Shown here in pieces: positions 5,233 to 61,235 of a stretch of DNA of 64,000 nucleotides. Numbering within the stretch: the stretch's first letter is position 1; each line of letters begins with the position of its first letter. The notes beneath the pieces are model-generated. The model had not been told where the DNA came from and did no database searches. It was given only the letters and a program-made list of their open reading frames with translations. A program made the position numbers and the translations under genes. The DNA is from Mactra quadrangularis (Eukaryota > Mollusca > Bivalvia > Venerida > Mactridae), in the NCBI GenBank assembly GCA_025267735.1, contig CM046303.1, forward strand, positions 69,393,034 to 69,457,033. Reading direction: 5' to 3'.

Positions 5233-5234
5233 AA

Positions 5235-12965: not shown

Positions 12966-13049
12966 ACATTATTTATTTCCATCTTGACTTAGACACAATC
13001 ATTAAGTCTTCGAAAACATTATCACTTTATTTAAAGGTCCAGGGTGCTA

Positions 13050-13067: not shown

Positions 13068-13073
13068 AAACAA

Positions 13074-17341: not shown

Positions 17342-17399
17342 AACAATCTGCTAATATTATTACATCAAAGTCGATTTAATTGTAAAAAATTTGCAAGAA

Positions 17400-18100
17400 T
17401 AATACAACAATCCGCTGTACTGTCAAAAATTCTAACAGTAAGGGTTTTCTGTTGTTACTGTTGTACTGCCGAAAATTCTAACAGTAGGGGTTTACTGTTG
17501 TACTGCTGTATTGTTGAAAATTCTAATAGTAAGGGTTTACTGTTGTACTGTTGTATTGTTGAAAATTCTAACAGTAAGGATTTACTGTTGTAAAGCTGAA
17601 ATGATGAAAATTCTAACAGTAAGGGTTTACTGTTGTACTGCTAAACTGATGAAAATTCTCACAGTAAGGGTTTACTGTTGTACTGCTGAACTGATGAAAA
17701 TTCTAACAGTAAGGGTTTATTGTCGACTGCTGAACTGATGAAAATTCTAACAGTAAGGGTTAACTGTTGTACTGCTGTACTGATGAAAATTCTAACAGTA
17801 AGGATTTACTGTTGTACTGCTGAACTGATAAAAATTCTAATAGTAAGGATTTACTGTTGTACTGCTGAACTAATGAAAATTGTAACAGTAAGGGTTTACT
17901 GTTGTACTGCTGAACTGATGAAAATTCTAACAGTAAGGGTTTACTGTTGTACTGCTGAACTGATGAAAATTCTAACAGTAAGGGTTTACTGTTGTACTGC
18001 TGAACTGATGAAAATTCTAACAATAAGGGTTTACGGTTGTACTGCTGAACTGATGAAAATTCTAATAGTAAGGATTTACTGTTGTACTGCTGTACTGATG
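17400..18100. repeat. 45-bp minisatellite (about 15 units) between R1 and R2
   Basis: The unit reads GATGAAAATTCTAACAGTAA, then GGGTTTACTGTTGTACTGCT and GAACT. Each unit can form a small hairpin, because AACAGTAA pairs with TTACTGTT across a short loop. The period is a multiple of 3, so both strands stay open (15-residue repeats such as LMKILTVRVYCCTAE). These are not evidence of a gene. Confidence 0.92.
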
Positions 18101-18810
18101 AATATCATTTTTTCAAATTCTGCCTTGTGCGTAAATTTACGCACTTCAGAATTTATGATTTTCTCCTTTTGGCAAGTACGTAAATTTACGCACTTCATAA
18201 TATGTTTTTTTTTTACTTTTTGCCTAGTGCAAAACTTATGCACTTCCGAATTTATGATGTTATCCTTTTGGCTAGTGCGTAAATTAACGTACTTAACGTA
18301 TAAAACGTATGAACATTTTCGATTACGAGACTTATTGAGTTCATAGGTACAATACAACACATTTACTTAATTTAACTTCACTTCTGAATATTATATGTAA
18401 TGAAAGAGAAATGACTATACTCTGCTTCAAATTATACAATGTTCTTGCGCTCTGTCAACATGAAAATCATAAAAAATCTTTATAATAAATAACCTTTTTG
18501 TGACTTTTTGTATCAATGTTTACAACTAATTCTATATCCACGTATTCGTCCAAACATTAAAATGAAACCACTCTGCTGGATTCTATCTGGTTCTATCTGT
18601 ACCATAGATTGGCTCTATCTGTACTTTTAATTTGGAGAATTCAAACATTCAACTTCTCAGTAAACTCACAAACATCCTAGGTCTGCCTGTTTATTGTCAG
18701 TAAAATGTGTAATTTCATGTTTAGCTTCACTCTCATTAACGCATTATCATTTTACACACTATTAAATTAAGGTGATGTCGACAACAACGCTGTGAACAGT
18801 TATGAGTATT
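18101..18810. repeat. Direct repeat R2 (~710 bp)
   Basis: Near-identical to R1 at 16634-17341. The ends are not TG...CA, and there are no primer-binding or polypurine sites inside, so R1/R2 are not the LTRs of a retrotransposon. Confidence 0.92.
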
Positions 18811-24439: not shown

Positions 24440-25988
24440 GCTACAGATATACCCTAAACAATGATGACTTAATCATGAAGAAAATACAAAATAAAATGTA
24501 TAATATATCAATAACTGAATTTATGTTGAGCTTTATGAATTATCTTTTAACTTAAACCCGACGATGATAGTTTGAGCGTTACGGTTGGTTATACTGTTTT
24601 ATTTAGCATTTATTATTCCAACTTTCGATTTCAATTTCCATCGATTTCGAAGAGACAGTGTTCATTAAGATTCTTAATGGAATATTGATCGTGAGTTTTA
24701 AAAACAAAGGTTAACTTTATACTCTTTTTTGTTGTATTATAAATACTGTACTTCATAATCAGCTAACGTCACTTGATTTATCTTTAAGAAATATAGGTCG
24801 TCCACTTAACATATTTTTCAAAACAAAGGTTATGGTATTGTTTCAACAGGTGCGTACTGCCACAGTGACTTGATGACGTGTTTAGCTACACATTCCCTTA
24901 ACAACGATGACTTTGCCATGAAGAGGATAAAATAAACTGTTATATATATCAATTATTGAATTCTATGTCGAGGTTCGGTGAGTAAACTGATATTAATACT
25001 CTTTTCACTTTAAACCAGTATGATAAATTGAGTGATACGGTTTGTCATATTTTTGTCTAATATTTAATATTCCAACTTTCGATTTCAGTTTTGTTTTTTA
25101 CAAGAGGCAATGTTCAGGAAGATTTCAAATGGACTATTTATTGTAATTCAATATACGGGCTAAAAATTTCTTTCTTGACCATAAAACTGTTTCAATTAGA
25201 TTTGTATGGTTTTTTTTTTCTCTATAACAATTGTTATTTTCGGCTCCATGTATATACCGATATGCACTTGATTTACCTGAAATACATCAGATTTATCGAA
25301 ATTCATCTAATATATAATTATTCAATTTGTATACAGCCATTCTCCAGGAATGGGTACCATTTTGGAAAAAAGCGAGTATCCACGTTATAAACGATTATAT
25401 ACTTGTTGGTATAATCACTTGAAAATACAAAATAAGATTGTTGATGCTAAATCAGGGCGGGTAATAACGTGGTTTTGCTTACGATAACATTGTGTCAACT
25501 TTAATGGCGGTGCCTATGAATTTAAAGGTACTTGCTATTTTTTCTTCATTTGAATTTTCTATATAGCCCATGTTCCAGCGACATAAAAGCCAATTATAGT
25601 GTTGTATAACGTATCAATATGTTTTTGTACTTTTCCTGATTACAGTGCAGAAAAAATGAAGCGGCGATGCTTTTTCGTAAAAACTCGTGGTAACGTTGGG
25701 TCACAAAATATATACTTACGTATTTAATTAACAACGCAATGAGTCTGTTTTGGAACGAAATTTGTACCGCGATTATCAGCGGAGCTAAATATGTAATCCT
25801 ACATATGTAAATATTAGCTTTTTATGATGTTATATGAAAAAAAGAATGATAACATTAGTTCACCAATCAATGAAATGGTAACATTGTGTTTCTGTTCTCA
25901 ATAGATCGTCCTAAATGGTTATATTTCCAGCATTTGCTTGTTTAGACTTTAGTCAAATAGATGTCATGTATATACAATTTAAGGTTTA
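24440..25988. repeat. Dispersed repeat D, copy 1 (paralogue of 57275-58590)
   Basis: From about 24711 to 25987 this matches 57297-58590 closely. Shared landmarks include GGTGCGTACTGCCACAGTG, GGCAATGTTCAGGAAG and CCCATGTTCCAGCGACATAA. Copy 1 also has an internal diverged duplication: the CCAACTTTCGATTTCA region near 24620 recurs near 25075. A 99-residue open frame at 25091-25390 is only partly kept in the other copy (61 residues), so it is probably not coding. Nature of the element unknown. Confidence 0.85.
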
Positions 25989-26577: not shown

Positions 26578-26583
26578 GGCCCT

Positions 26584-29242
26584 AGATCCATATTTTTCTG
26601 CGTAAAATTGCAACTGACCAATCAAAGCAAAGAAACTTCTGTAGAACTTGAAATTTTAACAGCAATTAAAGACCTTATCCCCCTATGCTTTGATGATATA
26701 GCGTTGCATCAAAACCCCATCAACTCTGAATTAGGGACCAGGATAGAAGTCATGTTTCTGGTACGGTTATAATGATGTTAAGTTGACAATAGACGACGAG
26801 ATTTAAACTGCTTACCTTTTGACACATTTGCAATGAACTCCGAACATCCTTCATAGATTCCACAACATTTCACTTTTGCTTATTTTTGTTCATGGAGTTT
26901 GACATTTTAGGGTTAATGATTTACCGAAAAAAACGGAAAACCCGAATATTCATGAAAAAAAACCCCGAAAGACACTCATTGGAGTTGTATCTTGAGCTAA
27001 TAAATCACGTTTTACTTTAAAAATATGTGTTTAAATGTTTTAAAATACTCGTTGCCAATGACATTTGAACAATTTTGATGTGTTAGTATCAATATTAAGT
27101 AAAAATGCACGTATTAAGATGCGACAAACAATCGTTGTAAGTACAATAGAAAGATTTCGTTTGTTAATAAATGTCTTTATAAAACTGTTTAAAACAAATG
27201 TCAGTAATAATAATTAATCTAACTATTTTTCCTGTATACACGGAAGTATAAGTCAGAATTAATACGAGGGATTATCGTTTCTCCGATAGCGAACAGAATC
27301 CAACCAGATTTTTCTAGAATATGAAAAAGCTATATGCTATATGAATGTTTTTGGGACATATCAATTAAGGTTTTTCGCCTGTGAAATTCATCATGAGTTA
27401 TTTCTCATGTATAGGCCTATATATTAACAACTTGTTTTGACTTTATCCATGGGTTACTCATATTATAGCTGATATAATGTCTATATATTAGAACCGAACG
27501 AACCCCTTACATGAGCCAAAAAAGGTCCATGATTTGTAAAAACCATAAAAGAACAAATTCAATTACTATTCTAAAATTTTCAAGGATTTGTTTACACTGT
27601 TCAAGTACTTGTTATGTATCTCAAGCACTAACATGTGTGAAATGGTATAAATAAAATTGTGCAAGCAGGACTCTAAAATGACATGTAACATGTTATGAGC
27701 GGTTTAAAACCAATAAAATAAAATCTAGTTAAGTAACATCCAAGGTCAGACGTTTAACTTATAAATGTATTTCACATTAACACTCGCGTTAAAAGCTTTT
27801 CTAAACATGGCAGAGAAATGTTATCATAATACTTGTTATGTCCAACATATTTCACGATGCTTAATACACATTATTTGCAAAATCCAGGAGAAAATCGATA
27901 AAATTAAGTTCAGCATAAGGTAAGAACATAACGTAAAAGGGAGTTCGTTAACATTCCCTTCAAAATATCAAAGAATGTGGACATAACAACTCACTCGAAA
28001 GAGTGAAGAATTGAAATGTTAGTCGGTGTTTTTTTAAAAAATATTTTCATAAGCCTACAGGCGGTAACGCCTCCAATCATAGTTTCTACAAATAAACATT
28101 TATTTATGGGTAAAACTTTTTATAAAGAGGTTTAATTACATAATGTGTTTACGATGCACACCAATTTGATATCTGAAAACTGGTTAAGTATTTTAACATA
28201 GAGAATCAAGAAATGCAGTAAATTGTAATGATTGAACATAATCATTATTGGGACATGATAAATCTACACAGGTGTTTTTTTAACAGTCGTATAAATCATA
28301 TCAGTTTATGAAAAATAGCCTGAATTTAATTTAGTTTAGGTCCAAAGAGCGTTGTTGCATAACAAATAGGCGATTTATTTTAACACACACAGTACATACA
28401 CGAGCATAATCTTAGTTCATACATGGTGTGTATTCAGCGAGCAATCTATTTTTTGTTTTATATTACAATCAAAAGGCCTCTAAATCTCTCAATACAATCA
28501 TATAACATAAACAATTACACATCCGAAAAAATCATATTCTGAAAAAATCATGGTCGATTACTGTTCGTTATAGGAGAAACAATTACCGCTCGTATTAATT
28601 ATGAATTATACTTACGTGTATACAGGAAAACTAGTTAGAATAATTATTATTACTATTGTACTTAAAACGATTGTCTGTCGCATCTTAATAATTGCATTTT
28701 TACTTAATATTGATACTAACACATCAAAATTGTTCAAATGTCATTGGCAACAAGTATTTTAAAACATTTAAACACATATTTTTAAAGTAGAACGTGATTT
28801 ATTAGCTCAAGATACAACTCCAATGAGTGTCTTTCGGTTTTTTTTTTCATGAATATTCGGGTTTTCCGGGTTTTTTTTCGGTAAATACATTAACCCTTAA
28901 AATGTCAAACTCCATGAACAAAAATAAGCGAAAGTGAAATGTTGTGGAATCTATGAAGGATGTTGATTTTCGTTGTTTCATTGCTCGGAGTTCATTGCAA
29001 ATGTGTCAAAAGGTAAGCAGTTTAAATCTCGTCCTCTATTGTCAACTTAACATCATTATACCCGTACCAGAAACATGACCCATATCCCGGTCCCTAATTC
29101 AGAGTTGAAGGGGTTTTGATGCAATGCTATATCATCAAAGCATAGAGGGATAAGTTCTAAAATTGCTGTTAAAATTTAAGTTTCTGCAGAAGTTTCTTTG
29201 CTTTGTTTGGTCATTTGCAATTTTATGCAGAAAAATATGGAC
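26584..29242. mobile_element. 2.66-kb foldback palindrome with ~0.7-kb inverted arms
   Basis: The left arm (26584-27317) begins at TCCATATTTTTCTGC. The right arm (28538-29242) is its reverse complement with scattered differences and small indels. Arm landmarks include TTTGACACATTTGCAATGAA, CCATGGAG-type words, AGACACTCATTGGAGTTGTA, and GCGACAAACAATCG. The ~1.2-kb loop holds no recognisable gene. The arms are non-coding and AT-rich. It separates two parts of repeat D that lie only ~0.6 kb apart in the copy at 57-59 kb, consistent with an insertion. Target duplication not resolved. Confidence 0.8.
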
Positions 29243-29403
29243 CTAAACGTTAACTAGGGATTTTATCATTGAAGACCTATGGAAAGATAACAAAATATTT
29301 CATCTTATATCAGTCTGGTTAATGAAGATATTAACAGAAATGGTAAATTTAGATAGTTCTTTATCCTAAAAATACTAAGTTTGAATTTTAAACAAATTAT
29401 ATG
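29243..29403. repeat. Continuation of repeat D, copy 1
   Basis: ATTTTATCATTGAAGACCTA, ATCAGTCTGGTTAATGAAG and CCTAAAAATACTAAGTTTG are shared with 59165-59300. Confidence 0.8.
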
Positions 29404-30289: not shown

Positions 30290-30560
30290 CATTATTCTAC
30301 TGATCGAGGGGTCGTAGGTTTGATTCCCGGGTGGGACATACTTTCGTGGAGCTTAGTTACGAAATAACTTCTACGGTCATTCTCCCTCCTACCACTGATT
30401 CTAAATCTTGTAGAGCAGTAGTCAGTCACTAATGCGTATGCTGTTGGTTAACAGCTAAATCCAGTGATTTAGCCTTTTCAGTAACAGTGAGTGGATGGAC
30501 TGATCTCCGTGATATAACCTATACAATATGTGTTGCTATGGTGTTAAGGCCACAACAAAT
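30290..30560 (+). mobile_element. tRNA-derived SINE, copy 1
   Basis: GGTTTGATTCCC near 30317 is a good RNA polymerase III B box, preceded by GATCGAGGGGTCGTA as in a tRNA T-arm region. Downstream it shares a body with 37460-37735: GGAGCTTAGTTACGAA, CATTCTCCCTCCTACCACTG, GGTTAACAGCTAAATCCAG, TCCGTGATATAACCTATAC. The A-box half is decayed or missing, so this copy is probably 5'-truncated. Confidence 0.75.
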
Positions 30561-31003: not shown

Positions 31004-31011
31004 GTATTTTG

Positions 31012-34000
31012 GGGTCATACTAAATACCACTAAGACACTACTAAGCACTACTAAGCACTACTAAGACACTACAAACACCACTAAGACACTACTAAGCACT
31101 ACTAAGACAGGATTTTAGGTGTTTTAATTGTATAAAATGTTATTATATGTTGATTTAAATACTAAATATGACATTTTCAGTAGGTTTTAAAAAAAAAACC
31201 AGTTAGAAATGATATTTTAGCACAAATAGTTAAATGAATAGACGAAAAAATGAAACCTCTTTTTTCCACTTCTGAGACACAAATAAAATCATGAAAATGT
31301 TTATTAAAAATGTAGACATTCACTAGTTATCACATATATTGATACTATTTGTATAAAGAAACATTTAATTGAGATATTTTATAAAAATATTAAAAAATAG
31401 ATGAAAAGATGGAATTTCAGTTAACACCACTAAGACAACACTAAGACAATACTAAGGTCTACTAAGACACGATTTACATACTTAATATTGTTTGATTGTT
31501 GTTAAAAATTTAAACATATAATAAAAACGACCTATGACGACTAGTTTTTTTGTAAACAAATATTTAATGGGGATATTATATTACAAATATTCAAAAAATA
31601 GACGCAAATATGAAATTACAGTAAACACCACTAAGACATCACTAAGACAACACTAAGACACTACTAAGGTCTACTAAGACACGATTTACATACTTTATAT
31701 TGATTAAATGTTGTTGAAAATTTAAACTAACACTAGTTACGACCTATACAGACTGTTTTGAAAATAAACGGGGATATTATATTACAAATATTCAAAAAAT
31801 AAATGAAAAGATGGAATTTCAGTAAACACCACTAAGACAACACTAAGACAATACTAAGGTCTACTAAGACACGATTTACATACTTAATATTGTTTGATTG
31901 TTGTTAAAAATTTAAACATATAATAAAAACGACCTATGACGACTAGTTTTTTTGTAAACAAATATTTAATGGGGATATTATATTACAAATATTCAAAAAA
32001 TAGACGCAAATATGAAATTACAGTAAACACCACTAAGACACCACTAAGACAACACTAAGACACTACTAAGGTCTACTAAGACACGATTTACATACTTTAT
32101 ATTGATTAAATGTTGTTGAAAATTTAAACTAACACTAGTTACGACCTATACAGACTGTTTTGAAAATAAACGGGGATATTATATTACAAATATTCAAAAA
32201 ATAAATGAAAAGATGGAATTTCAGTAAACACCACTAAGACAACACTAAGACAATACTAAGGTCTACTAAGACACGATTTACATACTTAATATTGTTTGAT
32301 TGTTGTTAAAAATTTAAACATATAATTAAAACGACCTATGACGACTAGTTTTTTTTGTAAACAAATATTTAATGGGGATATTATATTACAAATATTCAAA
32401 AAATAGACGCAAATATGAAATTACTGTAAACACCACTAAGACACTACTAAGGTCCACTAAGACACGAATTTATAACATACTTTACATTGATTAAATGTTG
32501 GTGAAAATTTAAACTTACACTAGTGACGACCTATATAGATTGTGTTTGTAAAAAACATTTAACGGGCATATTATATTAAGAATATTAAAAAATAGACGAG
32601 AAGATGACATTTCAATAATCACCACTAAGACACCACTAAGGTCCACCTAGACATAAATAACATACTTTATATTGATTGAATGTTGTTCAAAAATTTAAAC
32701 ATACAAGTAACGACCTATGATGACTGTTTTTGCAAAACTAACGGGGATATAATATCAAAAATATTAAAAAAGAGACGCAAAGAAAACATTACAGCAATCA
32801 CCACTAAGACACCTCTAAGCCACTCCTAAGGTCCACTGACACGAATTTATAACGTACTTAATATTGATTAAATGTTGTTGAAATTTTTTTATTACACTAG
32901 TGACGACATATACAGACTGCTTTTGTTAATACTAAGCTATATTAGGTCACTACTAAGTCACAACTAAGCTATACTAAGACACTACTAAGCTATACTAAGT
33001 CACTACTAAGATACTATTAAGCTATAATAAGACACTACTAAGACACCAATAAGCTATACTAAGTCACTACTAAGACACTACTAACCTATACTAAGTCACA
33101 ACTAAAACACCGTTAAGCTATACTAAGTCATTACTAAGCTATAATAAGTCACTACTAAGACACTACTAGGCTATAATAAGTCACTACTCAGTTATATTAA
33201 GTTACTACTAAGACACCACTTAGCTATACTAAGTCACTACAAAGCTATAATAAGTCACTACAAAGACACCACTAAGCTTTACTAAGTCACTACTAAGCTA
33301 TAATAAAACACTACTAAGACACTAATAAGCTATACTAAGTCACTACTAAGCTATAATAAGTTACTACAAAGACACTTCTAAGCTAAACTTAGTTACTACT
33401 AAGACACTACTAAGCTATACTAAGTCACTACTAAGCTATATTAAGTTACTACTAAGACACTACTAAGCTATACTTAGTCTCTACTAAGCTATATTAAGTT
33501 ACTACTAATACACTACTAAGCTATACTAAATCACTACTAAGCTATATTAAGTTACCACTAAGTCACTACTAAGCTATATTAAGTCACTACTAAGACTCTA
33601 CTAAGCTATATTAAGTTACTACTAAGACACTACTAAGCAATACTTAGTCACTACTAAGCTATATAAAGTTACTACTAAGACACTACTAAGCTATACTAAG
33701 TCACTACTAAGCTATATTAAGTTACTACTAAGACACTACTAAGCTATACTAAGTCACTACTAAGCTATATTATGTTACTACTAAGACACTACTGAGCTAT
33801 ACTAAGTCACTACTAATTTATAATATGTCACTACTAAGCTATATTTAGTCACAACTAAGACACAACTTAGCTATATTAGGTTACTACTAAAACACTTCTA
33901 AGCTATACTAAGTCACTACTAAGCTATATCAAGTTACTACTAAGACACTACAAAGCTATACTAAGTCACTACTAAGCTATATTAAGTAATTACTAAGACA

Positions 34001-36598
34001 CTAATAAGCTATACTTAGTCACTACTAAGCTATAATATGTCACTACTAAGCGATAATAAGTCACTACTAAGACACTACTAAGCTATATTAGGTCACTACT
34101 AAGTCACTACTAAGCTATACTAAGTCACTACTAAGCTATAATAAAACACAACTAAGACACTACTAAGCTATATTAGGTCACTACTAAGTCACTACTAAGA
34201 CACTACTAAGCTATATTAAGTTACTACTAAGATACTACTCAGCTATACTTAGTCACTACTAAGCTATATTAAGTTACTACTAAGACACTACTGAGCTATA
34301 TTAAGTTACTACTAAGATACTACTAAGCTATACTTAGTCACTACTAAGCTATATTAAGTTACTGCTAAGACACTACTAAGCTATACTAAGTCACTACTAA
34401 GCTATATTAAGTTACTACTAAGACACTACTGAGCTATTCTAAGTCACTACTAATTTATAATATGTCACTTCTAAGCTATATTAAGTCACTACTAAGACAC
34501 TACTTAGCTATATCAAGTTACTACAAAGCCACTTCTAAGCTATACTAAGTCACTACTAAGCTATATTAAGTTACTACTAAGACACTACAAAGCTGTACTA
34601 AGTCACTACTAAGCTATATTAGGTTACTACTAAGACACTACTGAGCTATACTAAGTCACTACTAAGACACTACTGAGCTATTCTAAGTCACTACTAATTT
34701 ATAATATGTCACTTCTAAGCTATATTAAGTCACTACTAAGACACTACTTAGCTATATCAAGTTACTACAAAGACACTTCTAAGCTATACTAAGTCACTAC
34801 TAAGCTATATTAAGTTACTACTAAGACACTACAAAGCTGTACTAAGTCACTACTAAGCTATATTAGGTTACTACTAAGACACTACTGAGCTATACTAAGT
34901 CACTACTAATTTATAATATGTCACTACTAAGCTATATTTAGTCACTACTAAGACACTACTTAGCTATATTAAGTTACTACTAAGACACTACTAAGCTATA
35001 CTAAGTCACTACTAAGCTATATTAAGTTACTACAAAGACACTACTAAGCTATACTAAGTCACTACTAAGCTATATTAAGTTACCACTAAGTCACTACTAA
35101 GCTATACTAAGTCACTACCAAGACACTACTAAGCTATATTAAGTTACTACTAAGACACTACTGAGCTATACTAAGTCACAACTAAGCTATAATATGTCAC
35201 TACTAAGCTATACTAAGTCACTACTAAGACGTTACTAAGCTATAGTAAGTCATTTACTAAGTTATACCACGTCACTACTAAGCTATATTAAGTTACCACT
35301 ATGTCACTACTAAGCTATACTAAGTCACTACCAAGACACTACTAAGCTATATTAAGTTACTTCTAAGACACTACTAAGCTATATTAAGTTACTACTAAGA
35401 CACTACTAAGCTATACTAAGTCACTACTAAGCTATATTAAGTTACTACTAAGACACTACTAAGCTATACTAAGAAACTTCTAAGTTACTACTAAGACACT
35501 ACTAAGCTATATTAAGTCACTACTAAGACACTACTAAGCTATATTTAGTTACTACTAAGACACTACTTAGCTATACTAAGTCACTACTAAGCTATATTAA
35601 GTTACTACTAAGACACTACTAAGCTATACTTAGACACTACTAAGTTATACAAAGTCTCTACTAAGCTATATTAAGTTACTACTAAGACACTACTAAGCTT
35701 TACTAAGTCATTACTAAGACACTAACAAGCTAGACTAAGTTACTACTAAGTCACTACTTAGCCAGATTCAGTTACTACTAAGCTATATTAAGTCACTACT
35801 AAACTATACTAAAAAACTACTAAGTTATATTTAGTCACTACTAAATCACTACTAAGCTATACTAAGACACTACTAAGCTATACTAAGTCACTACTCAGGC
35901 ACTACTAAGCAAGACTAAGTCATTACTAAGCTATTTTAAATTACTACTAAGCTATAATAAGTCACTACTAAGTTATATTAAGACACTACTGAGCTATACT
36001 TAGTCACTACTAAGACACTACTCAGCAAGACTAAGTCATTACTAAGCTATTTTAAGTTACTACAAAGCTATAATTAGTCCTTACTAAGACACCACTTAGC
36101 TATACTACGTCACTACTTAGCTATAATAAGTCACTATTAAGACACTACTAAGCTATACTAAGTCACTACTAAGACACTACAAAGCTATATTCAGTCACTA
36201 CTAAGACACTAATAAGTTACATTCAGTCACTCCTAAAACACTACTAAGCTATATTCAGTCACTACTAAGACTCTACAAAGCTATATTCAGTCACTACTAA
36301 GTTATATTTAGTCACTACAAAAACACTACTAAGCTATATTTAGTCACTACTAAGACACTACAAAGCTATATTCAGTCACTACTAGAACACTATAAAGCTG
36401 TATTAAATAACTACTAAGACACTACAAAGCTATATTCAGTCACTACTAAGACTCTACAAAGCTATATTAAGTCAATACTAAGTTATATTTAGTCACTACA
36501 AAAACACTACTAAGCTATATTTAGTCACTACTAAGACACTAATTATCTATATTCAGTAACTACTAAAGTACTACAAAGCTATATTCAGTCACTCATGG
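31012..36598. repeat. Left inverted arm of the foldback element: TACTAAG tandem array
   Basis: Three zones. The outer zone (31012-31130) has tight ACTACTAAGCACTACTAAG repeats. The middle zone (to ~32930) has clusters of CACTAAGACA words separated by AT-rich ~150-bp spacers. The inner zone (32930-36598) is a dense array of 10-11-bp words (ACTAAGACACT, ACTAAGTCACT, ACTAAGCTAT, ATTAAGTTACT). Over long stretches these combine into a ~53-bp higher-order unit, for example around 33690-33800. Stop codons occur in all frames. Confidence 0.93.
31406..32430. repeat. ~400-bp higher-order repeat in the left arm
   Basis: GGAATTTCAGT(T/A)AACACC recurs near 31410, 31815 and 32217. The intervening blocks are nearly identical, each containing two spacer types (one with TTGTTTGATTGTTGTT, one with TTGATTAAATGTTGTTG). 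Low divergence points to recent unequal exchange. Confidence 0.85.
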
Positions 36599-37002
36599 CG
36601 TGTGTTCTATCAGACTTTAGAGCACGCTTGTGCAAAGGAAGTTGCTCGTTCTGGAAGTGCTTCTAATATTAAGGGTGTGCCATAAGTCATGGAAAGACGG
36701 AACTCATCTTTATCAGCGCTCCTTGGTGCTTGACAGGGCCGCGTAACTGACATATACGTCAGTTTATGAATTTTTTTTATTGAATTGCCCATTGTTTTGT
36801 TTCATTTTTTTCAACAGTCATGGGCGCATACACTTATCCCGCTGATTTTTATATTACTTCTGTACTTACGATCGATAAAATATTAAAATCAGCGGAGTTA
36901 TTGCATGTCGTATTGCATGGAGGAAGTCAATATACACAAAGTTACATGAAATTATTAGACAACTAATGTAAATGTGCATTATAAATTATGTAGCGCCATC
37001 TA
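36599..37002. other. Foldback element centre, left unique part
   Basis: Non-repetitive. It contains an imperfect palindrome AACTGACATATACGTCAGTT near 36744. No recognisable gene; a 60-residue minus-strand frame has no motif. Confidence 0.4.
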
Positions 37003-38225
37003 TACAATCAACAAAATTTCTAATCAGTCACTTTTAATTTCAAAATAACTTTAAAAATAAAATTAAATTCGCTCGATTTTTTTAAACATGAACATGTGGG
37101 TCACATACAGAAAAAAACACCGATGGTCACCGATGCACATGATCCATAGAACAAATTTGTCTCAATTTCTGGTAATGCAAATTTTGCACGTTATCCACGT
37201 GCACATAAAAGAAACACTTGAACCAACCCGTTTGAACACATTTACAAACGTTGTTGTTATCCAGACTGGAAAAACATATAAAATGAGAAAAACATCCCTG
37301 GTGGATCGGGACCGAGCGGTCGAGATGTTGGAAGGTGGTACATCTTTACGTCGGGTTAGTTGAAATTAATTATTGCAATGTACTTGATGCTATTTAATAT
37401 TAAATACGTTGTGATACGAAATTGCACACTCGTTTCACAAAATATTCATGCCAATCCGACGAGCTCAAACTCTAGCGCAGATCGAGAGGTTATGGGTTTG
37501 ATTCTCAGGCGGGGCATACTTACATGGAGCTTGGTCAAGGAATAATTTTCCCCTCAATTCTCCCTCCTACCACTGACTCTAACTCATGTAGGTCAGAAGT
37601 ATGCACCTAGTAACTGGTTAACAGCCAAATCCAGAGATTTAGCCTTTCCAGGAACGGCGGGTAGCCTGCATGTCCGCCGTGATATGACATATACAATGTG
37701 TTTCTACGGTGCTGAACCCAACCAAAAAGAAGAATATAACCGTATTTACGGATGAAACCAGAATGTCATTACAAAACCCAAATGGTCGACAACGCATCTA
37801 TCGAAGACTCAATGAAAGGCATAGTGCTAATTGTGTTGCTAAAACTGACCAACTCAGATAGGATCCATAATGATGTGGGCAGGAATATCTATGCACACAA
37901 AGACGCAAATGGTATTGATAAAAATGCAACTTGAATGCTCGACTTTATCATCCAGCTCGATAACGAGAATAATGTGCGAGTAATTCCTTTCCCTCCAAAG
38001 AGTGTGGACTTGAATCCGATTGAACACGTTTTGGACTTGCTGAAACGTCGAATTCGAGCCCGCCACTAGCAGCAGTCATTGATAATATGATATGTTTTTC
38101 TGAAATAGACACGATATATTTAGCTTCACTAAATATTGCTATGATAGTCCCTAGTTTATTTCAGTTCTTTGAAAATAAGGAATTAATGGGGTGACCGATT
38201 AGAAATTTTAGGGAGTGTACTGTAA
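37003..38225 (+). pseudogene. Tc1/mariner transposase relic, split by a SINE
   Basis: The N-terminal piece at about 37283-37356 reads MRKTSLVDRDRAVEMLEGGT, the start of a Tc1-type helix-turn-helix DNA-binding domain. After a gap holding a SINE, 37745-37860 reads VFTDETRMSLQNPNGRQRIY, containing the second-strand 'FTDE' catalytic Asp block, then SIMMWAGI in another frame. Near 37980-38065, VDLNPIEHVLDLLKRR is the C-terminal block. The central block with the NARPHTARV-type Asp is missing, so the DDE triad is incomplete. Frame changes and stops abound. Inverted AAATTTCTAATC(A/G)GTCAC at ~37015 and ~38190 probably mark its TIRs. It is a passenger in the foldback element, not its engine. Dead copy. 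Confidence 0.85.
37460..37735 (+). mobile_element. tRNA-derived SINE, copy 2, inside the Tc1 relic
   Basis: GGGTTTGATTCTC near 37493 is the B box. The body shares GGGGCATACTTACATGGAGC, TTCTCCCTCCTACCACTG, GGTTAACAGCCAAATCCAG and CCGTGATATGACATATAC with copy 1 at 30290. It lies between the helix-turn-helix piece and the FTDE piece of the transposase, so it inserted later or in a linked deletion. Confidence 0.8.
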
Positions 38226-40231
38226 ATAAAGGTTCAAGACTAATCGATTACCCAGGGGTTCTATCGATTTTCCTGTACACACTGCTTTTACATATTCTGA
38301 AAAATATGGTCATTGGGTAAATATTCCATATGCTAAAGAATAAGTGTTGAATAGTTTATGTCAAATCATGCAATCTAGTGTGGAGGAAGATCGGGAAGTT
38401 TGTTCTGTATTTTTGTGGCGACAATTTAATAATTTTTGTCACTTTTAAAGTCATAATGAAATGATTTGCGACTATATGGCACAAAATGTTAATTTAGTAA
38501 ATATCTCAATGTTAATTGTAATAATTATACATATTTTTCTGATTGCATTCACCTGCCAAAACAGGTAAAAATGAATATACATTCCTGACGTATCTTTTTT
38601 ACGAGTATAAGCAAGGATTTAACATGCGAATTTTCATTGGTTCGTAAATACGAACGGAATTGCATTCTTTGTTCTAATTGGCTAGTGGGCGTGTCTGATG
38701 GGTTGATTGACATTTTTGTACTTGTAATTAATTATCGGGATCTATTACAGTATACTATAATAACGAGTTAAATAGGAACCCTGCTGATTCGATACATTAA
38801 TCTCATCCGACTTCCTGTCGTGAAGTATACAACTTAGGAGATCATTTTAAACCTTGTGTACTGGCATATATTACAGTGATATATTACCAACCATTGGTGA
38901 GATATACAAAATGTAGCTTGTTAAGGATAACTTGAGACAAAATTCAACGATACCGTTTTCATACGCAATAGGATCTAAGTATAGTAATTAGTACACGTAA
39001 TTATCTAATATTATCAGTGTGTTTTTGACATATTAAATTCATCACAGGAACACACGTTCCACACATTTAATATGTTCATTACTCAAAATAAAGTAAAAGT
39101 AATTTCTTCTTTTCAAGCGCATTCAAATCTGTAAAAAAATATTTATTTATAAACTGTCGTCTACACTACCAGAGCTATATACGTTACCATACTTCATAAA
39201 TTGACCCCCTATTTCATGTAATACCTGAGTCCAAAATATTTACCAAAATTGACTCGTTTGTCTCAAGTTATCCTGCACGAGCTATATTGGTAGTTTGCGT
39301 TGATTCTGGATTTTTGAAAGTAATTCGGATAAAAAGATGAGTCGGTCTATGTCTTGAAGATTTTAAAACCTTTTTCTGTAATTTAGTAAATGACTTGTAT
39401 ACTACACGAACTAATAAGGCGGAGTCTTCTGGTCAAGATCATAAATTTGTCTGATGATGGTTTTAAGCGTCCGCGTGCGCGTAGGTTTTAGAGTTCTCAA
39501 TCAAAATAAAAAAAACAAAATTGTTGGTCAATTTTTCTTAAATAAATCCGATGTTCCGGCATTCAATACGACAATTTAATCTAGGGAAAATTGTGTTCAG
39601 CAACGACGTTATTCATCGTTAGCAATTTATCATAACCACGCATTAATATAACATAAAAAAACACTAGTCATTTTATTTTAAATTCAGACCAGTGTTTCAT
39701 ATTACAAGGATGATATTCCATTGAAAAAAGATATATAATGCAATGTTTTGTCGTAAAAATATTTGAGTTTTCGTTTTCGGTTTGTGTGTTTTTGTGAATA
39801 AATACCTAGGTTTGTCAAATTTGATTGTGATTTGTTTTCTCGAAATCGAGTTTACAAGACAAGCTATGGATGTCAACAAAGCAAAATAGTTCGTGATTTG
39901 GAAGTGATTGTTAACGTTTTTACTATAAAAGAACGATATGGAATCATCAAAACTGCTGCAAATAGTTTATCACGAGCTAAGGTTTATTTTGAAAATCTGT
40001 CTATGTACCAGAAGATTTGTTATCCCGTAAAAACTAATAAATTGTACTTCTGCATAAATTCACTACCAATCGCAATCACTGATGTCGTACAGTCGTTTAT
40101 ACACCGTGTTTACCAATAGTCGTTATTGAAAGCGTGCTTTATCTGATTTTATGACCGCTTATGTGATTGTTGAATTTTATGACCCCTGGTGTGATTGTAT
40201 AATGCATGTATATTACGTACGCAGTGGGTAC
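38226..40231. other. Foldback element centre, right unique part; no recognised gene
   Basis: AT-rich. The best open frame is 95 residues at 39832-40119 on the plus strand. It has no motif I recognise and no supporting context, so I do not call it a gene. Nothing resembling a transposase was found. Confidence 0.4.
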
Positions 40232-40450
40232 ACTTTTATGATAGAAAAGAACAGAACAGAACAGAATTTATTATAAAAAGTATAAACACATGGTGATACG
40301 GTTACCGTCCTGTATCATTCTTTCCACTCTATTATCAAAGCGCTGAAAGCACTGAAGCAAGACTATAGTAACCACACGATACGATACGTATCTATAGGAA
40401 AGGAGACGATGTGATTATTAACGATACGATACATGTAGTTATTGTAAAAA
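40232..40450 (-). mobile_element. Possible LINE or SINE 3' end with (TTCTG)n tail
   Basis: On the minus strand, ATACTTTTTATAATAAATTC runs into TGTTCTGTTCTGTTCT, an AATAAA-like signal followed by a short tandem tail. This is the usual look of a non-LTR element 3' end. The body is too short to classify. Confidence 0.35.
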
Positions 40451-40518
40451 TACTGTGCAAAAACATTCACAATAATTACATTCATTAATTTATATTCACC
40501 TTGAAAATAAGCTTATAG

Positions 40519-43500
40519 CTATGTAGTTACTTAATATAGCTTAGTAGTAACTTATTATAGCTTAGTACATGTAGTGACTTAGTCTTGCTAAGAAGTGTCT
40601 TAGTAGTGACTTAGTATAGCTTAGTGATGTCTCAGTAGTAACTTAATATAGCTTAGTAGTGACTTATTATAGCTTAGTAGCGACTCAGTATAGCTTAGTA
40701 GTGTCTTAGTAGTGATCTAATATAGCTTAGTAGTGACTTATTATAGCTTAGTAGTAACTTAATATAGCATAGTAGTGACTTAGTCTGGCCTTATAGTGTC
40801 TTGTAGTGACCTAGTATAACTAGTAGACCTAGTATAGTGATGTCTTAGTAGTGACTTATAATAGCTTAGTAGTGTCTTAGCAGTGACCTAATATAGCTTA
40901 GTTGTGACTTAGTAGTAACCTATCATATCTTAGTAGTGACTTTGTCTTGCTAACTAGTGTCTTATTTGTGTCTTAGTATAGCTTAGTAGTGTCTTAGTAG
41001 TGACTTAGTATAACTTAGTGATGTCTTAGTAGTGACTTATAATAGCTTAGTAGTGTCTTAGCAGTGACCTAATATAGCTTAGTTGTGACTTAGTAGTAAC
41101 CTATCATATCTTAGTAGTGACTTTGTCTTGCTAACTAGTGTCTTATTTGTGTCTTAGTATAGCTTAGTAGTGTCTTAGTATTGACTTAAAATGGCTTAGT
41201 AGTGACTTATTATGGCTTAGTAGTAAATTTATACACCTTAGTAGTGTCTTAGTAGTGACTTAGTATAACTTAGTGATGTCTTAGTAGTAACTTAATATAG
41301 CTTAGTAGTGACTCATTATGGCTTAGTGATGTCATAGTAGTAACTTATTATAGCTTAGTAGTGACTTAGTATAGCTTAGTAGTGTCTTAGTAGTGACTTA
41401 GTATAGCTTAGTAGTGTCTTAATAGTGACTTAATATTGCTTAGTAGTGACTTATTATAGCTTAGTAGTAACTTTATTCAGCTTAGTAGTGTCTTAGTAGT
41501 ATTTAGTATAGCTTAGTGATGTCTTAGTAGTTACTTAATATAGCTTAGTAGTAACTTATAATAGCTTTGTAGTGACTTAGTATAGCTTAGTAGTGTCTTA
41601 GTAGTGACTTAGTATAACTTAGTGATGTCTTAGTAGTGACTTATAATAGCTTAGTAGTGTCTTAGCAGTGACCTAATATAGCTTAGTAGTGACTTAGTAG
41701 TAACCTATTATAGCTTAGTAGTGACTTTGTCTTGCTAACTAGTGTCTTATTTGTGACTTAGTATAGCTAAGTAGTGTCTTAGTAGTGACTTAAAATGGCT
41801 TAGTAGTGACTTATTATAGCTTAGTAGTAAATTTATACACCTTAGTAGTGTCTTAGTAGTGACTTAGTATAACTTAGTGATGTCTTAGTAGTAACTTAAT
41901 ATAGCTTAGTAGTGACTCATTATGACTTAGTGATGTCTTAGTAGTAACTTATTATAGCTTAGTAGTTACTTAGTATAGCTCAGTAGTGTCTTAGTAGTGA
42001 CTTAGTATAACTCAGTGATGTCTTAGTAGTGACTTAATATAGCTTAGTAGTGTCTTAGTAGTGACCTAATATAGCTTTTTAGTGACTTAGTAGTAACCTA
42101 TTATAGCTTAGTAGTGACTTAATCTTGCTTAGTAGTGTCTTAGTAGTGACTTAATATTGCTTAGTAGTGACTTATTATAGCTTTGTGGTGTCTTAGAAGT
42201 GACTGAATATAGCTTTGTAGTGGCTTAGTATAGCTTAGTAGTGTCTTAGTAGTGACTGAATATAGCTTAGTGGTGTCTTATTAGTGACCAAGTAGTGGCT
42301 AAGATGTGTCTTAGTAGTGACTTATTATTACTTAGTAGTGACTTAGTATAGCTCAGTAGTGGATAAGTATAGCTTAGCGGTGTCTTAGTAGTGACTGAAT
42401 AAAGCTTTGTGGTGACTTAGTATAGAATAGTGATGTCTTAGTAGTGACGTTATATAGCTCAGTAGTGACTTATTATAGCTTAGTAGTAACTTAATACAGC
42501 TTAGTGATGTTTTAGTAGTAACTTAATATAGCTTAGTAGTGACTTATTATGGCTTAGTATTGTCTTAGTATAGCTTAGTAGTGACTTATTATAGCTTTGT
42601 GGTGTCTTAGAAGTGACTGAATATAGCTTTGTAGTGACTTAGTATAGCTTAGTAGTGTCTTAGTAGTGACTGAATATAGCTTAGTGGTGTCTTATTAGTG
42701 ACCAAGTAGTGGCTAAGATGTGTCTTAGTAGTGACTTATTATTACTTAGTAGTGACTTAGTATAGCTCAGTAGTGGATAAGTATAGCTTAGCGGTGTCTT
42801 AGTAGTGACTGAATAAAGCTTTGTGGTGACTTAGTATAGAATAGTGATGTCTTAGTAGTGACGTTATATAGCTCAGTAGTGACTTATTATAGCTTAGTAG
42901 TAACTTAATACAGCTTAGTGATGTTTTAGTAGTAACTTAATATAGCTTAGTAGTGACTTATTATGGCTTAGTATTGTCTTAGTATAGCTTAGTAGTGACT
43001 TAGTATAGCTTAGTGATGTCTTAGTAGTAACTTATTATACCTTATTAGTGACTTATTATAGCTAAGTAGTGTCTTAGTAGTGACCTAATATAGCTTATAA
43101 GGGACTTAGTAGTAAGTTATTATAGCTTAGTAGTGACTTAGTCTTGCTTAGTAGTGTCTTAGTAGTGACTAAGTATAGCTTAGTAGTTTCTTAGTAGTGA
43201 CTTTATATAGCTTAGTAGTAACTTATTATAGCTTAGTAGTGACTTAGTATAGCTTAGTAGTACCTTTATACAGCTTAGTAGTGTCTTAGTAGTGACTTAG
43301 TATAGCTTAGTGATGTCTTAGTAGTGACTTTATATAGCTTAATTAGTAGTGACTCAATATAGCTTAGTAGTAACTTAATACAGCTTAGTGATGTCTTAGT
43401 AGTAACTTAATATAGCTTAGTAGTGACTTATTATAGCTTAGTATTGTCCTAATATAACTTAGTAGTGACTTAGTCTTGCTTGATAGTGTCTTAGTAGTGA

Positions 43501-44317
43501 CTTAATATAACTTAGTTTTGTCTTAGTAGTGACTTAGTATAGCTTAGTAGTGTCTTAGTAGTGACTGAATATAGCTTAGTAGTGTCTTAGTAGTGGCTGA
43601 ATATACCTTAGCAGTGTATTAGTCGTAATAAGATTCCTTTTAAATTTCTAAGAACATTTTAATCAACAAAATATACTTAATTCGTGTCTTAGTAGTGAAC
43701 AATGAGATTTAATCTGTTCGTCTATTTATTTAACTATTATTAAATATCGTTTTAGCTGTTGATTTATTTTCAAAACCAACTTAGAATTTCGTATTTTGTT
43801 TCAAATCAACATTTAATAACATTTTATACAATTAAAACGACTAAAATACTGTCTTAGTAGTGCTTAGTAGTGTCTTAGTGGTGTTTGTGGTGTCTTAGTA
43901 GTGAACATTAAATTTCATCTTTTGGTCTATTATTTTATTTTCTAATTAAATATCTCCTATAAAATAGTCGTTTTTTAACAAAATCTAAGCAGGTGTTTAA
44001 TTTTTTGACAATATTTTGTTCAAGATAAAGTACTTATTTAATTCATTCGAGTTTTAGAGGTGAAATGAGATTTCATTTTTTTCATCTATTCACTTAACTA
44101 TTTGCGCTAAAATATCATTTTTAACTGGGTTTTTTTTTGCAAAACCATATTAAAATGTCGTATTTAGTAGTTAAATCAACATATAATAACATTTTATACA
44201 ATTAAAACACCTAAAATCCTGTCTTAGTAGTGCTTAGTAGTGTCTTAGTGGTGTTTGCTGTGTCTTAGTAGTGCTTAGTAGTGCTTAGTAGTGTCTTAGT
44301 GGTATTTAGTAGGACCG
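40519..44317. repeat. Right inverted arm of the foldback element
   Basis: The reverse-complement counterpart of the left arm. Dense CTTAGTAGTGTCTTAGTAGT and CTTAGTATAGCTTAGTAGT words fill 40519-43620. Then two terminal modules (about 43640-43920 and 43930-44317) follow with the same spacers as the outer left arm. It is about 1.8 kb shorter than the left arm, mainly because the middle zone has fewer repeats. Confidence 0.93.
42179..43006. repeat. 414-bp near-perfect tandem duplication in the right arm
   Basis: AGCTTTGTGGTGTCTTAGAA at 42179 recurs at 42593, and the following ~400 bases match almost throughout (for example GACCAAGTAGTGGCTAAGAT in both). This is a local recent duplication. Confidence 0.85.
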
Positions 44318-44325
44318 GTATTTTG

Positions 44326-45299
44326 TTCAATTGCATTTAATATTCTATATTATTATTCTGCATAGCTTATACATTTAGTGAATTCATTCAATATTAACCT
44401 TCAATTAAATACTTCCAATATTTCTGTATAATTCAGAATTAGCTCGGCTAACATCATGATGGATCAAACCTGTTGATTTTGGTGTTAAAGTAGTCTTAAT
44501 GTTATTGGATAAATAAGAGATGGACTAAACAACATACAACTGCTCAATATAATTAAGTAATCCAGAATGAGTACCAGCTGAGCACCCCCGTAAAATATAA
44601 ACGGACGAGTCCTGTTGAATTTTTTTATTGAAAAAAAATTATATTGCATAAATAACATGGGAATGACTCAACAACAAACAACTACTCAGACTACTCATCA
44701 TGTATGAGGATTTTAGAGTCAGCTTCCATATGAAATAAAAATGGACCGAACTGGTTAACTTTTAAGTGAATAAACACAGACTTGTCATTTATGCCAACTA
44801 TGCTATAGACTAAACAAGAAACAACTGCAACATGTAAATATACCTTAATTATGTGGAAGAAAACAATTACATCAGCACCCTTCTAAATTAAAAATTGACT
44901 AAACATTTTGGTATATAGATATAGCCTTGGGGTACGTTATTCAAAATACAACTTTATTTCAAAATTAGTATGTTCAGTATTTTGGGGCACTTACAAATAT
45001 AATGATAAATATTCTACCCTCTCTTACCCGATTGTCACCAATAGTATTTTGATTTTTTACACAGCACGGGGGACATATGACGTCACATATCCAGAGCTGT
45101 GTAGAGTTGATGAAGACATCAGTTTACGTCAGTGTTCAACTGATGATCATGTGTTAATATGAAGTTTATGGTAAACGTGCATTGAATTTATACTTGATGT
45201 ATTCATTTTATAAGTGAATTTTAAACTAGAGCAATTTTAAGTGCGGTAAATCTGACGAACATATGATCACATTCTTGTAGCCTGAACCAAATAAAAAAC
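44326..45299. other. No recognised feature; right flank of the foldback element
   Basis: AT-rich. One 84-residue plus-strand frame at 44908-45162 has no recognisable motif. Confidence 0.4.
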
Positions 45300-54885: not shown

Positions 54886-56057
54886 GGGCCCCGTTACACC
54901 AAACCAGTTCGCAGAACGTTCGACCCCGTCCTAAAAATATCGCGAAACTGGTTGTGAACGAGCTAGGACGTGCCGTATATACCCCCGTTACACCAAACTC
55001 GTTCTCACTACGTTCTGAAAAAATTGGACCGAACGAGCTCCAAGTGTGTGCAAACGGACTGGACGTAGTTCCAACTTTCTACGGTCTGTGTTTAAACGTT
55101 ATGGACGAGCTAGGAAGTTCCGAACCAGTTTGCAACACGTTTACACAGAGTTCCTAAAGTTTGCAGTAGGTTCTCGGTACGTTCTACTCGTTTTTAGTAA
55201 GTCTATTGCGTTCGTATGCAGATCGTACCACGTCCATAACGTCTACAATACGATCTGATAAGGTTTGGTATAAATACAGACCATTTTTCACCTAGTTATT
55301 ATCTGGGCCCAAGCTCTTAGCCTAGAACCATGGAAGTCGTTAATGCTTTGAATGTTGGCTTTGTACTCTTTTTTTATAGAAGCGCAGCAAGAATACAATT
55401 ACAAGGTAGAAAAGAAACACCCTCTTTTTTATTGACTGGCCCAGGAGGCTTAGTATCTTGTGGCTTATATTGATGCTGGTCTTCACGAGCTTCACATGTG
55501 CAGGTGATTTTGGATCGTTTGGAAGCGATTGTCTTAACACTCACCGTCTGTCTGGTTCTGCTCTTTTTTGAGGCTCGATGGTCACAGTGATGCTTGGCGA
55601 ATTGTGTCCCTAAAGGTTGAAGCGCGGAGCGAGAATGAAAACGGGAAGAAACGTCCTGGATATTTATAGCACATCGGGTCAGAACGTGACTTTATTTCGT
55701 TCAAAACGCACTAAGATTGAGATAAGAACGTACTTAGAACGAGTTGAACTGTCTTTAACGGGATGGTCAAGTGTAAAGGAGCTTAGAAGAACTAGTTATG
55801 AACGGGTTAAAACTGACTACGAATGGGTTTGGACTAGTTTGAGACGGTGTCTAGTGACGAGAACGAGCAATTTTACCTGGCTACAGACGGGATGGAAACG
55901 AAATACACGCAACGGGAACTGGTTCTGAACGAACTATGATCGTATAACTGATATTTTTCAACTTAAACGGCACGTTCTAACTCGTTCACAACCAGTTTCG
56001 TGATATTTTTAAGACGGGGTCGAACGTTCTGAGAACTAGTTTGGTGTAACGGGGTCC
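54886..56057. mobile_element. Harbinger-like TIR element A
   Basis: The left terminus GGGCCCCGTTACACCAAACC and the right terminus, inverted, GGACCCCGTTACACCAAAC extend as ~90-bp inverted repeats. These include ACGTTCGACCCCGTC and GTGAACGAG(C/T)TAG. TTA lies directly outside both ends (54883-54885 and 56058-56060). A 3-bp TTA duplication is typical of the PIF/Harbinger superfamily. Element A overlaps element B rather than lying wholly inside or outside it. Confidence 0.7.
55381..55608 (-). pseudogene. Gene-like fragment in the left arm of element B
   Basis: On the minus strand a frame reads QFAKHHCDHRASKK, later KTIASKRSKITCTCEARED and KPPGPVNKKEGV, and ends at a stop near 55381. The partner frame in the opposite arm (56229-56447) is clearly related. 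It has no start of its own and no domain I can name. The clustered His/Cys residues could be a decayed zinc-binding segment. It may be part of the element's own second protein or a captured host exon. Confidence 0.5.
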
Positions 56058-56219
56058 TTACTATTGACCATCCCGTTTAAGACAGAACTACTCGTTCTTA
56101 GAACGTTCCCATCTCGTTCTAAGAGCGTACTGAACGTAATAACATCACGTTCTGATCCGATTGCTATGAATATCCAGGACGTTTCTACCCGTTGGCATTC
56201 TTGTTCCACGGTATAAGCT

Positions 56220-56447
56220 GTGAGGACACAATTTGTCAAGCATCACTGTGACCACCATGCTTCAAAACAAAGAGCAGAGCCTGACAGGCGGCGCATGTTA
56301 AAACAATCGCTTCCAAAAATCACCTGCTTAGATGAAGCTTTTAAAGATCAGCCTCTAGTTAAGCCTAAGAATTCTGAGCCTCCTGAGCCAGTCAATGAAA
56401 ATGAGGGTGTTGTGTCTCCTGCTCTTTCTAATGACTCAGACAGCTAG
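56220..56447 (+). pseudogene. Gene-like fragment in the right arm of element B
   Basis: A frame of ~75 residues includes QFVKHHCDHHASKQRAEP, then KQSLPKITCLDEAFKDQPL and EPPEPVNENEGVVSPAL, ending NDSDS and a stop. It is polar and charged, unlike the random frames around it, and aligns with the frame at 55381-55608 over most of its length, with indels. This is a plausible C-terminal protein tail. No known domain recognised. Confidence 0.5.
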
Positions 56448-57274
56448 ATTTCGGGATAAGATTTTGGGCAGAGTCAGAAGCCAGAAAAAAGAAGAAAACT
56501 AAGATATACACCCATCTCTTGGTGAGAAATGGTCTGTATTTAAACCAAACCTTGCCAGATCGTACTGTAGACGTTATTGTGTTGTACGAACTGCATACGA
56601 ACGCAATAAACGTATTAAAAACGTGTAGAACGTGCCAAAAACCTACTGCGAACTTTAAGAACTACGTGTAAACGTGTTGCAAACTGGTTCAGAACTTTAT
56701 AATTTGTTTTCATACATTAAGACGGGATAACAACGCATTATGGTCGTAATCAAGACGAGTTAAGTCTTTGTGCAAACGGAATGAACCGAGTTACAAACGG
56801 AACAGGTCGGTGTGTAAACGTACTGCAAATTGATGCCCGATCGAACTACGACAAGTCGCGTCTCGAGTACGATGCTAGTACGGCAATTTCGCTCGCAGTA
56901 CGTCCATTCAGTTGCCAGTACGTTGCAACTAGTTGCAGAACGAGGTGCCCGCAGAAAATATTTGAGTCGACTCAAAGTTCTGAAACCCCATTCTCGTTCA
57001 ACCCCGTCCGAGCTCGTTCATCACGTTCGTACAAAGACTGTAGCAAGTTGCTACTACGTCTATTCCGTTTTCACACAGTTGGAACTCGTTCGGTCCAATT
57101 TTTTTTTCAGAACGTAGTGAGAACGAGTTTGGTGTAACGGGGGTATTAAGTATCATCAAAATACACCTTAGCAAATGTAGCGAATAAACATCTAGGGGCA
57201 TGCCGTCGACCCACTATTTTGTGCGTAACCTAAAAACGGCCTATATACGCGCCTGGTATGCTTGTTCTTGAATG

Positions 57275-61144: not shown

Positions 61145-61235
61145 TCATTGGTAGGAGGGAGAATGACCGTAGAAATAATTTCAAGACCAAACTCCACGAA
61201 AGTATGCCCCGCCAGGGACAGATATAATTCTATAT
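61145..61235 (-). mobile_element. tRNA-derived SINE, copy 3 (fragment)
   Basis: On the minus strand GGCGGGGCATACTTTCGTGG, then TTCTACGGTCATTCTCCCTC and CTACCAATGA, match the central part of the SINEs at 30290 and 37460. The B box itself is lost. Confidence 0.65.

Follow-up and report, generated by a model that had tools for sequence, protein, structure and literature searches.

A probable non-autonomous foldback-type DNA transposon of 13.3 kb, with kilobase tandem-repeat arms, in the bivalve Mactra quadrangularis

The window analysed here, a 64-kb stretch of the Mactra quadrangularis genome, carries two large arrays of a TACTAAG monomer in opposite orientation. An earlier note, made from the letters alone, had taken them for parts of a single element of foldback design, and both arrays are indeed the inverted repetitive arms of one unit arranged around a middle domain (Table 1). 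The sizes it had given for the arms, 5.6 and 3.8 kb, are correct. Read from the outside to the inside, the left arm consists of an outer monomer cluster, an AT-rich spacer of ~310 bp, clustered modules and a pure array of 3.66 kb, and the right arm consists of an outer cluster, a spacer, one more module and an array of 3.1 kb.

Table 1. Positions of the foldback-like unit and of its parts in the 64-kb window
Feature	Position	Strand	Description
Whole foldback unit	31012-44317		13,306 bp; arms 5,582 bp (left) and 3,804 bp (right), middle 3,920 bp
Left flank repeat GTATTTTG	31004-31011	.	Read as target-site duplication; exact direct repeat of 44318-44325
Left terminal domain	31012-31161	+	Outer TACTAAG cluster 31017-31109, then start of first AT-rich spacer
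Left outer AT-rich spacer	31110-31423	+	Homologous to right outer spacer, 248/322 columns
Left subterminal modules	31424-32928	+	Seven ACTAAG clusters, ~150-bp AT-rich spacers between
Left inner array	32930-36593	+	345 monomers; commonest five-monomer block 53 bp; period 10.62 bp
Middle domain	36594-40513	.	3,920 bp; no cognate transposase recognised in frames scanned
Nested decayed Tc1/mariner-like element	37001-38225	+	Limits approximate; fragments only, broken frames
Dispersed repeat inside Tc1-like copy	37480-37726	+	SINE-like by appearance only
Right inner array	40514-43630	-	291 monomers; same commonest five-monomer block; period 10.62 bp
Right second module	43631-43903	-	Cluster 43850-43903 and AT-rich spacer homologous to outer spacer
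Right outer AT-rich spacer	43906-44222	-	Homologous to left outer spacer
Right terminal domain	44168-44317	-	Inverted match to 31012-31161
Right flank repeat GTATTTTG	44318-44325	.	Read as target-site duplication; exact direct repeat of 31004-31011

The termini of the unit are GGGTCATACTAAATACC and CGGTCCTACTAAATACC, as the earlier note had quoted, and its description of them as near-identical and inverted is borne out by the alignment of the left arm with the inverted right arm, in which 145 of the 150 terminal columns are identical (97%), non-array sequence included. Against the reverse-complemented right arm, the first three 50-bp bins match at 48/50, 48/50 and 49/50 positions; further in, identity is 85% (151-200) and 84% (201-260), and then 56%, 70% and 71%. 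Local alignment of the outermost 300 bp of one arm with those of the other scored 416. Random 300-bp segments drawn from three stretches of the window gave at most 39 in 294 pairs, 6 of the 300 draws having been discarded for overlap. The outermost base is not equal at the two ends, being G on one side and C on the other (left GGG, right CGG).

Directly outside both ends lies the 8-mer GTATTTTG, again as claimed beforehand. In 200,000 draws from places outside the element and outside the array at 11.4-13.0 kb, the probability that two random places share an exact 8-mer was 5e-5, rising to 0.002 once a slack of 3 bp is allowed at each boundary. The flank-repeat evidence consists of one 8-mer in AT-rich DNA at one copy of the element. 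GTATTTTG occurs in the window seven times on the plus strand, both flank copies counted, and three times on the minus strand, at 43791 (within the right arm), 44977 and 45044, the last two less than 720 bp to the right of the element. At the 44977 site, GTATTTTG extends to GTATTTTGGGG, like the left junction, with a score of 25 compared with 24 for unrelated sequence. The 8-mer is absent where the arms border on the middle, and two separate insertions, one per arm, were therefore rejected.

The outer spacers align in inverted orientation, in keeping with the match between subterminal spacers that had been noted before. Since these spacers are not array sequence, their inverted order indicates that the arms are not two satellites merely sharing a motif, and the claim that the arrays are not independent satellites stands. 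The left outer spacer also matches spacers L2-L8 further in on its own side (z 8-13) and the second module of the right arm (z 20), with nothing above z 2 for L9 and R3, the short spacers that lie innermost; for the right outer spacer, the matches to L2-L8 are weaker (z 4.6-9.6; all z scores from simple shuffles, 30 each). The innermost short spacer of the right arm (43625-43690) showed no match to the outer spacers. The clusters of the left modules follow each other at intervals of 201, 201, 201, 201, 202 and 189 bp, and an eighth ACTAAG cluster was seen by eye near 32800. A duplication of 562 bp within the left arm, at an offset of 402 bp, retains 99.3% identity, and growth of this arm therefore looks recent.

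In both inner arrays the monomer is TACTAAG followed by a linker of 3-4 bp (ACAC, TCAC or CTA). Parsing into monomers left over 2 of 3,664 bases on the left and 29 of 3,117 on the right. The parser is permissive, accepting 66-67% of the bases in the centre and flanks and 75-77% of those in shuffled arrays. Bare coverage is thus uninformative, and the score per base was used instead: it is 0.82 for the left and 0.75 for the right array, whereas the shuffled arrays give -0.24 and -0.28 and the centre and two flanks lie between -0.42 and -0.44. The commonest five-monomer string, CTACT, which makes up the 53-bp block, occurs 62 and 38 times in the left and right arms. The strongest period of ACTAAG, among periods of 5-60 bp, has the same value in both arrays and is close to the 10.5 bp of one DNA turn. 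The motif ACTACTAAG is found 125 times on the plus strand of the left arm, 110 times on the minus strand of the right arm and nowhere else in the 64 kb; a literature search for it gave only unrelated papers among the matches listed.

In the middle domain the longest stop-free frame has 105 aa, compared with a mean of 101 in shuffled sequence, and 36% of 300 shuffles reach 105. A Pfam scan of 14 of the 43 frames of at least 40 aa that overlap 36500-41000, together with one shorter piece of one of these frames, recognised no cognate transposase, and no MULE transposase was found in the 14 frames. The sole credible match among the scanned frames was a DDE_3 fragment at 37935-38069 (E 2.4e-5; at 24.7 bits it falls short of the Pfam cut-off, 28.6); three weak matches, also below the cut-off (E 0.004, 0.062 and 0.095), were taken as chance. 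The DDE_3 fragment lies in a nested, decayed Tc1-like copy that has an inverted end pair of its own (37003-37031 and 38191-38219, 83%). The earlier statement that no transposase is visible in the centre accordingly holds for a cognate one in the frames scanned, and it has to be amended for this remnant. The SINE-like repeat inside the Tc1-like copy has a further copy at 30302-30559 (75%) and a partial one at 61123-61213 (79%).

Exact-pattern searches with the terminus gave no match in viral contigs or in bacterial and archaeal genome contigs, and a three-motif array pattern gave none in viral contigs; these results say little, because such collections are a poor place to look for an animal transposon. 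No weaker copy of the terminus stood out in the window. The left terminus with its flank repeat reached a best score of 25, compared with 24 for unrelated sequence, apart from a score of 34 that overlaps the left junction itself, and the best scores were 23 for the left terminus without the flank repeat and 21 for the right end. The joined flanks matched only themselves, and hence there is no empty-site paralogue in the window, in which neither an Rfam family at gathering score nor a tRNA was detected. The window also holds a BEL/Pao-like element that carries a tandem array of 1.5 kb. A protein search with its gag gave 241 matches; among the matches listed (the best 120 of 241), 15 of the 19 with an organism name were from bivalves, the best named match was from Mytilus galloprovincialis (49% identity), and the non-bivalve names were an acorn worm, a sponge and two bacterial MAGs. 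A second protein search gave five matches, all lacking an organism name.

The inverted ends, the matching spacers and the perfect 8-bp flank repeat support the proposal that the 13.3 kb is one insertion. We consider it likely that 31012-44317 is one non-autonomous foldback-type DNA transposon, known from one copy and inserted by a predicted transposase encoded elsewhere. The new family mobilised in trans that the earlier note had put forward is a putative extension of this reading, drawn from one copy. As in foldback elements generally, long tandem-repeat inverted arms surround a middle, a flank duplication lies outside both ends, and repeat number is unequal between the arms (345 and 291 monomers). 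The element is a further example of the known foldback design, common to FB, Tetris, Tm1 and Galileo, and is set apart by the size of its arms and by its near-one-turn monomer; FB and Tetris are the closest parallels. Sea urchin TU elements likewise have long repetitive inverted arms and 8-bp duplications.

The likenesses and differences below follow the excerpts of the reports cited. FB has mirrored end sequences, a spacer and short tandem-repeat blocks around a middle, and its blocks of five short repeats occur in unequal numbers on the two sides (PMC7642927), which parallels the ~97% identical ends, unequal arms and commonest five-monomer block of the present element. However, FB makes 9-bp duplications and its blocks consist of five repeats of 27-31 bp, compared with 8 bp and a monomer of 10-11 bp here, and the two insertions described hold 2,418 and 2,563 bp of FB sequence rather than 13.3 kb (PMC7642927). 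Tetris of Drosophila virilis comprises an outer domain, tandem modules of ~220 bp, an inner domain and a middle in which no coding capacity is apparent, and three structurally complete copies have duplications of 8-9 bp, a range that includes the 8 bp found here (PMC4079207). Its modules resemble in length the ~200-bp modules of our element, the two being compared by description only, whereas its inverted repeats reach 1,735 bp, compared with arms of 5.6 and 3.8 kb here (PMC4079207), and the arms here are mostly made of the 10-11-bp monomer. Tm1 of root-knot nematodes (Mutator/Phantom) has short asymmetric terminal motifs, as the outermost bases here also differ, and then tandem motifs, mostly of 14 bp, whose number varies and can differ between ends (PMC3169594). 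It differs in its 9-bp duplications, in having 1-9 consecutive motif copies rather than hundreds, and in that a transposase-encoding copy is known, whereas the present element is known from one copy without one (PMC3169594). Galileo, a Drosophila element of the P superfamily, has long internally repetitive ends, with tandem repeats of ~210 bp in one subfamily, and the copies with the longest arms described are without transposase; its duplications are of 7 bp and its arms reach ~1.26 kb, unlike those of our element (PMC3573991). In a limited search of the bivalve literature, the word foldback was met only where Tetris, the fly element, came in.

Among the superfamilies, both precedent and the length of the flank repeat favour a Mutator-like affiliation, although a duplication of 8 bp is compatible with the Mutator-like range of 8-11 bp and not diagnostic of it. 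Kyakuja-Dileera-Zisupton and hAT elements also make 8-bp duplications. Tc1/mariner elements duplicate TA, in place of which the whole unit has the 8-bp GTATTTTG, and this speaks against such a placement, as the 7 bp of Galileo speak against the P superfamily. For the Mutator-like groups, target-site duplications, where indicated, are given as 8-11 bp for MULE and 8-10 bp for Phantom in the excerpt of PMC6446971, and foldbacks seem mostly to be Mutator-like members (PMC4079207, in the part cited). Merlin elements duplicate 8-9 bp and start with 5'-GG at both ends, according to the part of PMC8101967 cited; the length agrees with the present case, but the ends do not (left GGG, right CGG), which speaks against Merlin. 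On the Kyakuja-Dileera-Zisupton and hAT groups, the cited part of PMC9297572 reports no target duplication detected in the species treated.

Whether the element arrived at its present size is a separate matter, on which the comparison of the arrays bears. When cut into tiles of 160 bp, 42 of the 44 tiles of the left array and 32 of the 37 of the right array are closer to their own arm than to the other, the remaining 2 and 5 matching the other arm at least as well, and the order of the arrays does not correspond between arms (rank correlations -0.26, p 0.09, and 0.03, p 0.88). Being non-collinear and mostly self-similar, the arrays have probably expanded separately, and they seem to have turned over separately after their separation. 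The common 53-bp block suggests that they shared an ancestor and, since it is the commonest block in both, the formation of the five-monomer block probably predates their separation. The near-identity of the outer end alone fits selection for transposition or homogenisation, without being proof of either. The full 13.3 kb need not have been present at the time of insertion, and it is quite possible, though somewhat less probable than its opposite, that a foldback of ordinary size inserted, that its arms swelled later and that the 13.3 kb as such never moved. The separate, non-collinear growth of the arrays agrees with such a history, as do the near-identical duplications within the arms (that of 562 bp on the left, and those of 545 and 486 bp at 96% in the right array) and the presence of a 1.5-kb tandem array in the BEL/Pao-like element of the same window. 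Inside Tetris, too, repeats expanded, and the Tetris authors suggest, in the excerpt cited, that large arrays may have disrupted transposition (PMC4079207). Part of the growth may nevertheless precede insertion; the arrays share their commonest 53-bp block. This history overlaps with the explanation that we prefer, the element being the same and its past different.

The remaining alternatives concern the nature of the unit itself. That no insertion took place, and that a satellite locus was split by an inversion or by unrelated DNA with a coincidental 8-bp match, is improbable: the inner arrays alone would look alike in that case, and the duplication is a single 8-mer in AT-rich DNA, but an inversion is not expected to leave matching non-array ends and spacers, inverted, at the outer edges, nor are matching 8-mers expected exactly there. 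We regard it as very unlikely that the unit is itself a Tc1/mariner element with expanded repetitive ends, the transposase in the middle being its own, since the remnant has an end pair unlike the arm ends, its fragments lie in broken frames only, and the flank repeat is of 8 bp and not TA; the DDE_3 fragment itself speaks for this reading, and so does Mcmar, a Tc1/mariner-like element with repetitive ends of 355 bp (PMC3169594, in the part cited). Tandem arrays are hard to assemble, and the copy number of the arrays in the assembly may be wrong. An assembly artefact from a hairpin (foldback) read or a collapsed satellite is nonetheless highly improbable, because a mirror image would give near-identical, collinear and equal arms, whereas these are ~20% divergent, measure 5.6 and 3.8 kb and have non-collinear arrays. 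Hardly any weight falls on a Helentron/HINE-type element with satellite-like repeats, as in oysters. Bivalve elements of that type do carry tandem arrays, but HINEs often hold one short array between two modules (PMC7492417, in the part cited), and the present unit has two opposite terminal arrays inside long inverted termini and an 8-bp flank repeat.

For a non-autonomous foldback-type transposon, a working mechanism can be proposed. A transposase made at another locus would take the outer ~150 bp, and perhaps the TACTAAG units as well, as its recognition sites, and the ends would be paired, cut and then inserted at a site staggered by 8 bp. The outer ~150 bp would be the obligatory recognition part, which could explain why this portion alone is nearly identical between the arms. 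The TACTAAG monomers may provide extra contact sites for the transposase, by analogy with the arms of Galileo, for which multiple transposase binding sites have been shown (PMC3688188, in the part cited). As the repeat of 10.62 bp is near one DNA turn, neighbouring sites would face the same side of the helix, and cooperative binding would be possible, presumably at the stage when both ends are brought together. The two arms may have lengthened independently of each other, through unequal exchange or slippage during replication. We also considered a bolder version, in which the arms form a kilobase binding lattice of more than 600 TACTAAG sites, along which a filament of trans-acting transposase pairs the ends of a new giant mollusc foldback family that then seeds satellite DNA. 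It builds on the one-turn spacing that would be kept through alternating 10- and 11-bp monomers, and we think it unlikely. Against any advantage of very long arms stands the suggestion of the Tetris authors that large arrays may disrupt transposition (PMC4079207, in the part cited).

Foldback elements give rise to inversions and are a possible source of satellite DNA, and Tetris has been described as following an expansion route to satellite arrays (PMC4079207, in the part cited). The arms reported here exceed, by a factor of 2-4, the greatest arm lengths stated for Tetris and Galileo in the excerpts of PMC4079207 and PMC3573991. In the foldback literature compared, the reason why the arms are repetitive is not settled, and an element with long arms of one short monomer at near-one-turn spacing makes the idea of a binding-site array directly testable.

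The 11-mer spanning the left junction, where the left 8-bp flank repeat meets the end of the probable foldback-type element, GTATTTTGGGG, is found again once, at 44977-44987, 652 bp to the right of the right flank repeat, with an alignment score of 25 that is not clearly higher than the 24 of an unrelated match. Elsewhere in the window, a smaller second inverted pair (26583-27324 / 28532-29245; 645/771 columns identical), with about 1.2 kb between its copies, may represent another inverted-repeat element. The 54979-57146 region, which has a raised G+C content of about 43%, holds nested inverted repeats.

The window also contains a BEL/Pao-like LTR element with TG...CA termini and a 5-bp flank repeat, GACAC. 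Its LTRs are identical in 399 of 410 aligned columns, the alignment spanning slightly more than the LTR coordinates. A 69-bp minisatellite (7732-8125 and 13467-14264) encloses this element, and a 1.5-kb, pyrimidine-rich array of 22-bp tandem units (11414-12938) lies within it, between gag and one LTR. Three + frames of this array are open for 484-550 codons because its stop content is low, and they are no evidence for a gene.

Coordinates of repeat features in the window
Feature	Position	Strand	Details
BEL/Pao-like LTR element	8126-13466	-	DUF1759 gag, LTR pair, TG...CA ends, flank repeat
DUF1759 gag	9824-10972	-	
LTRs of BEL/Pao-like element	8126-8518 and 13074-13466		
45-bp tandem array between direct-repeat copies of 16633-18810	17426-18102		
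Outer inverted repeat of 54979-57146	54979-55115 / 57007-57146		86%
Inner inverted repeat of 54979-57146	55115-55804 / 56025-56697		533/717 columns

The two copies of a direct repeat (16633-18810; 702/711 columns identical) bracket a tandem array of 45-bp units, and a 1.3-kb dispersed repeat occurs at 24712-25982 and 57297-58589 (1192/1306). The near-perfect repeats within 2426-5618 (2426-2807 versus 4851-5232, 380/382; 4476-4859 versus 5235-5618, 384/384) apparently reflect recent duplication.
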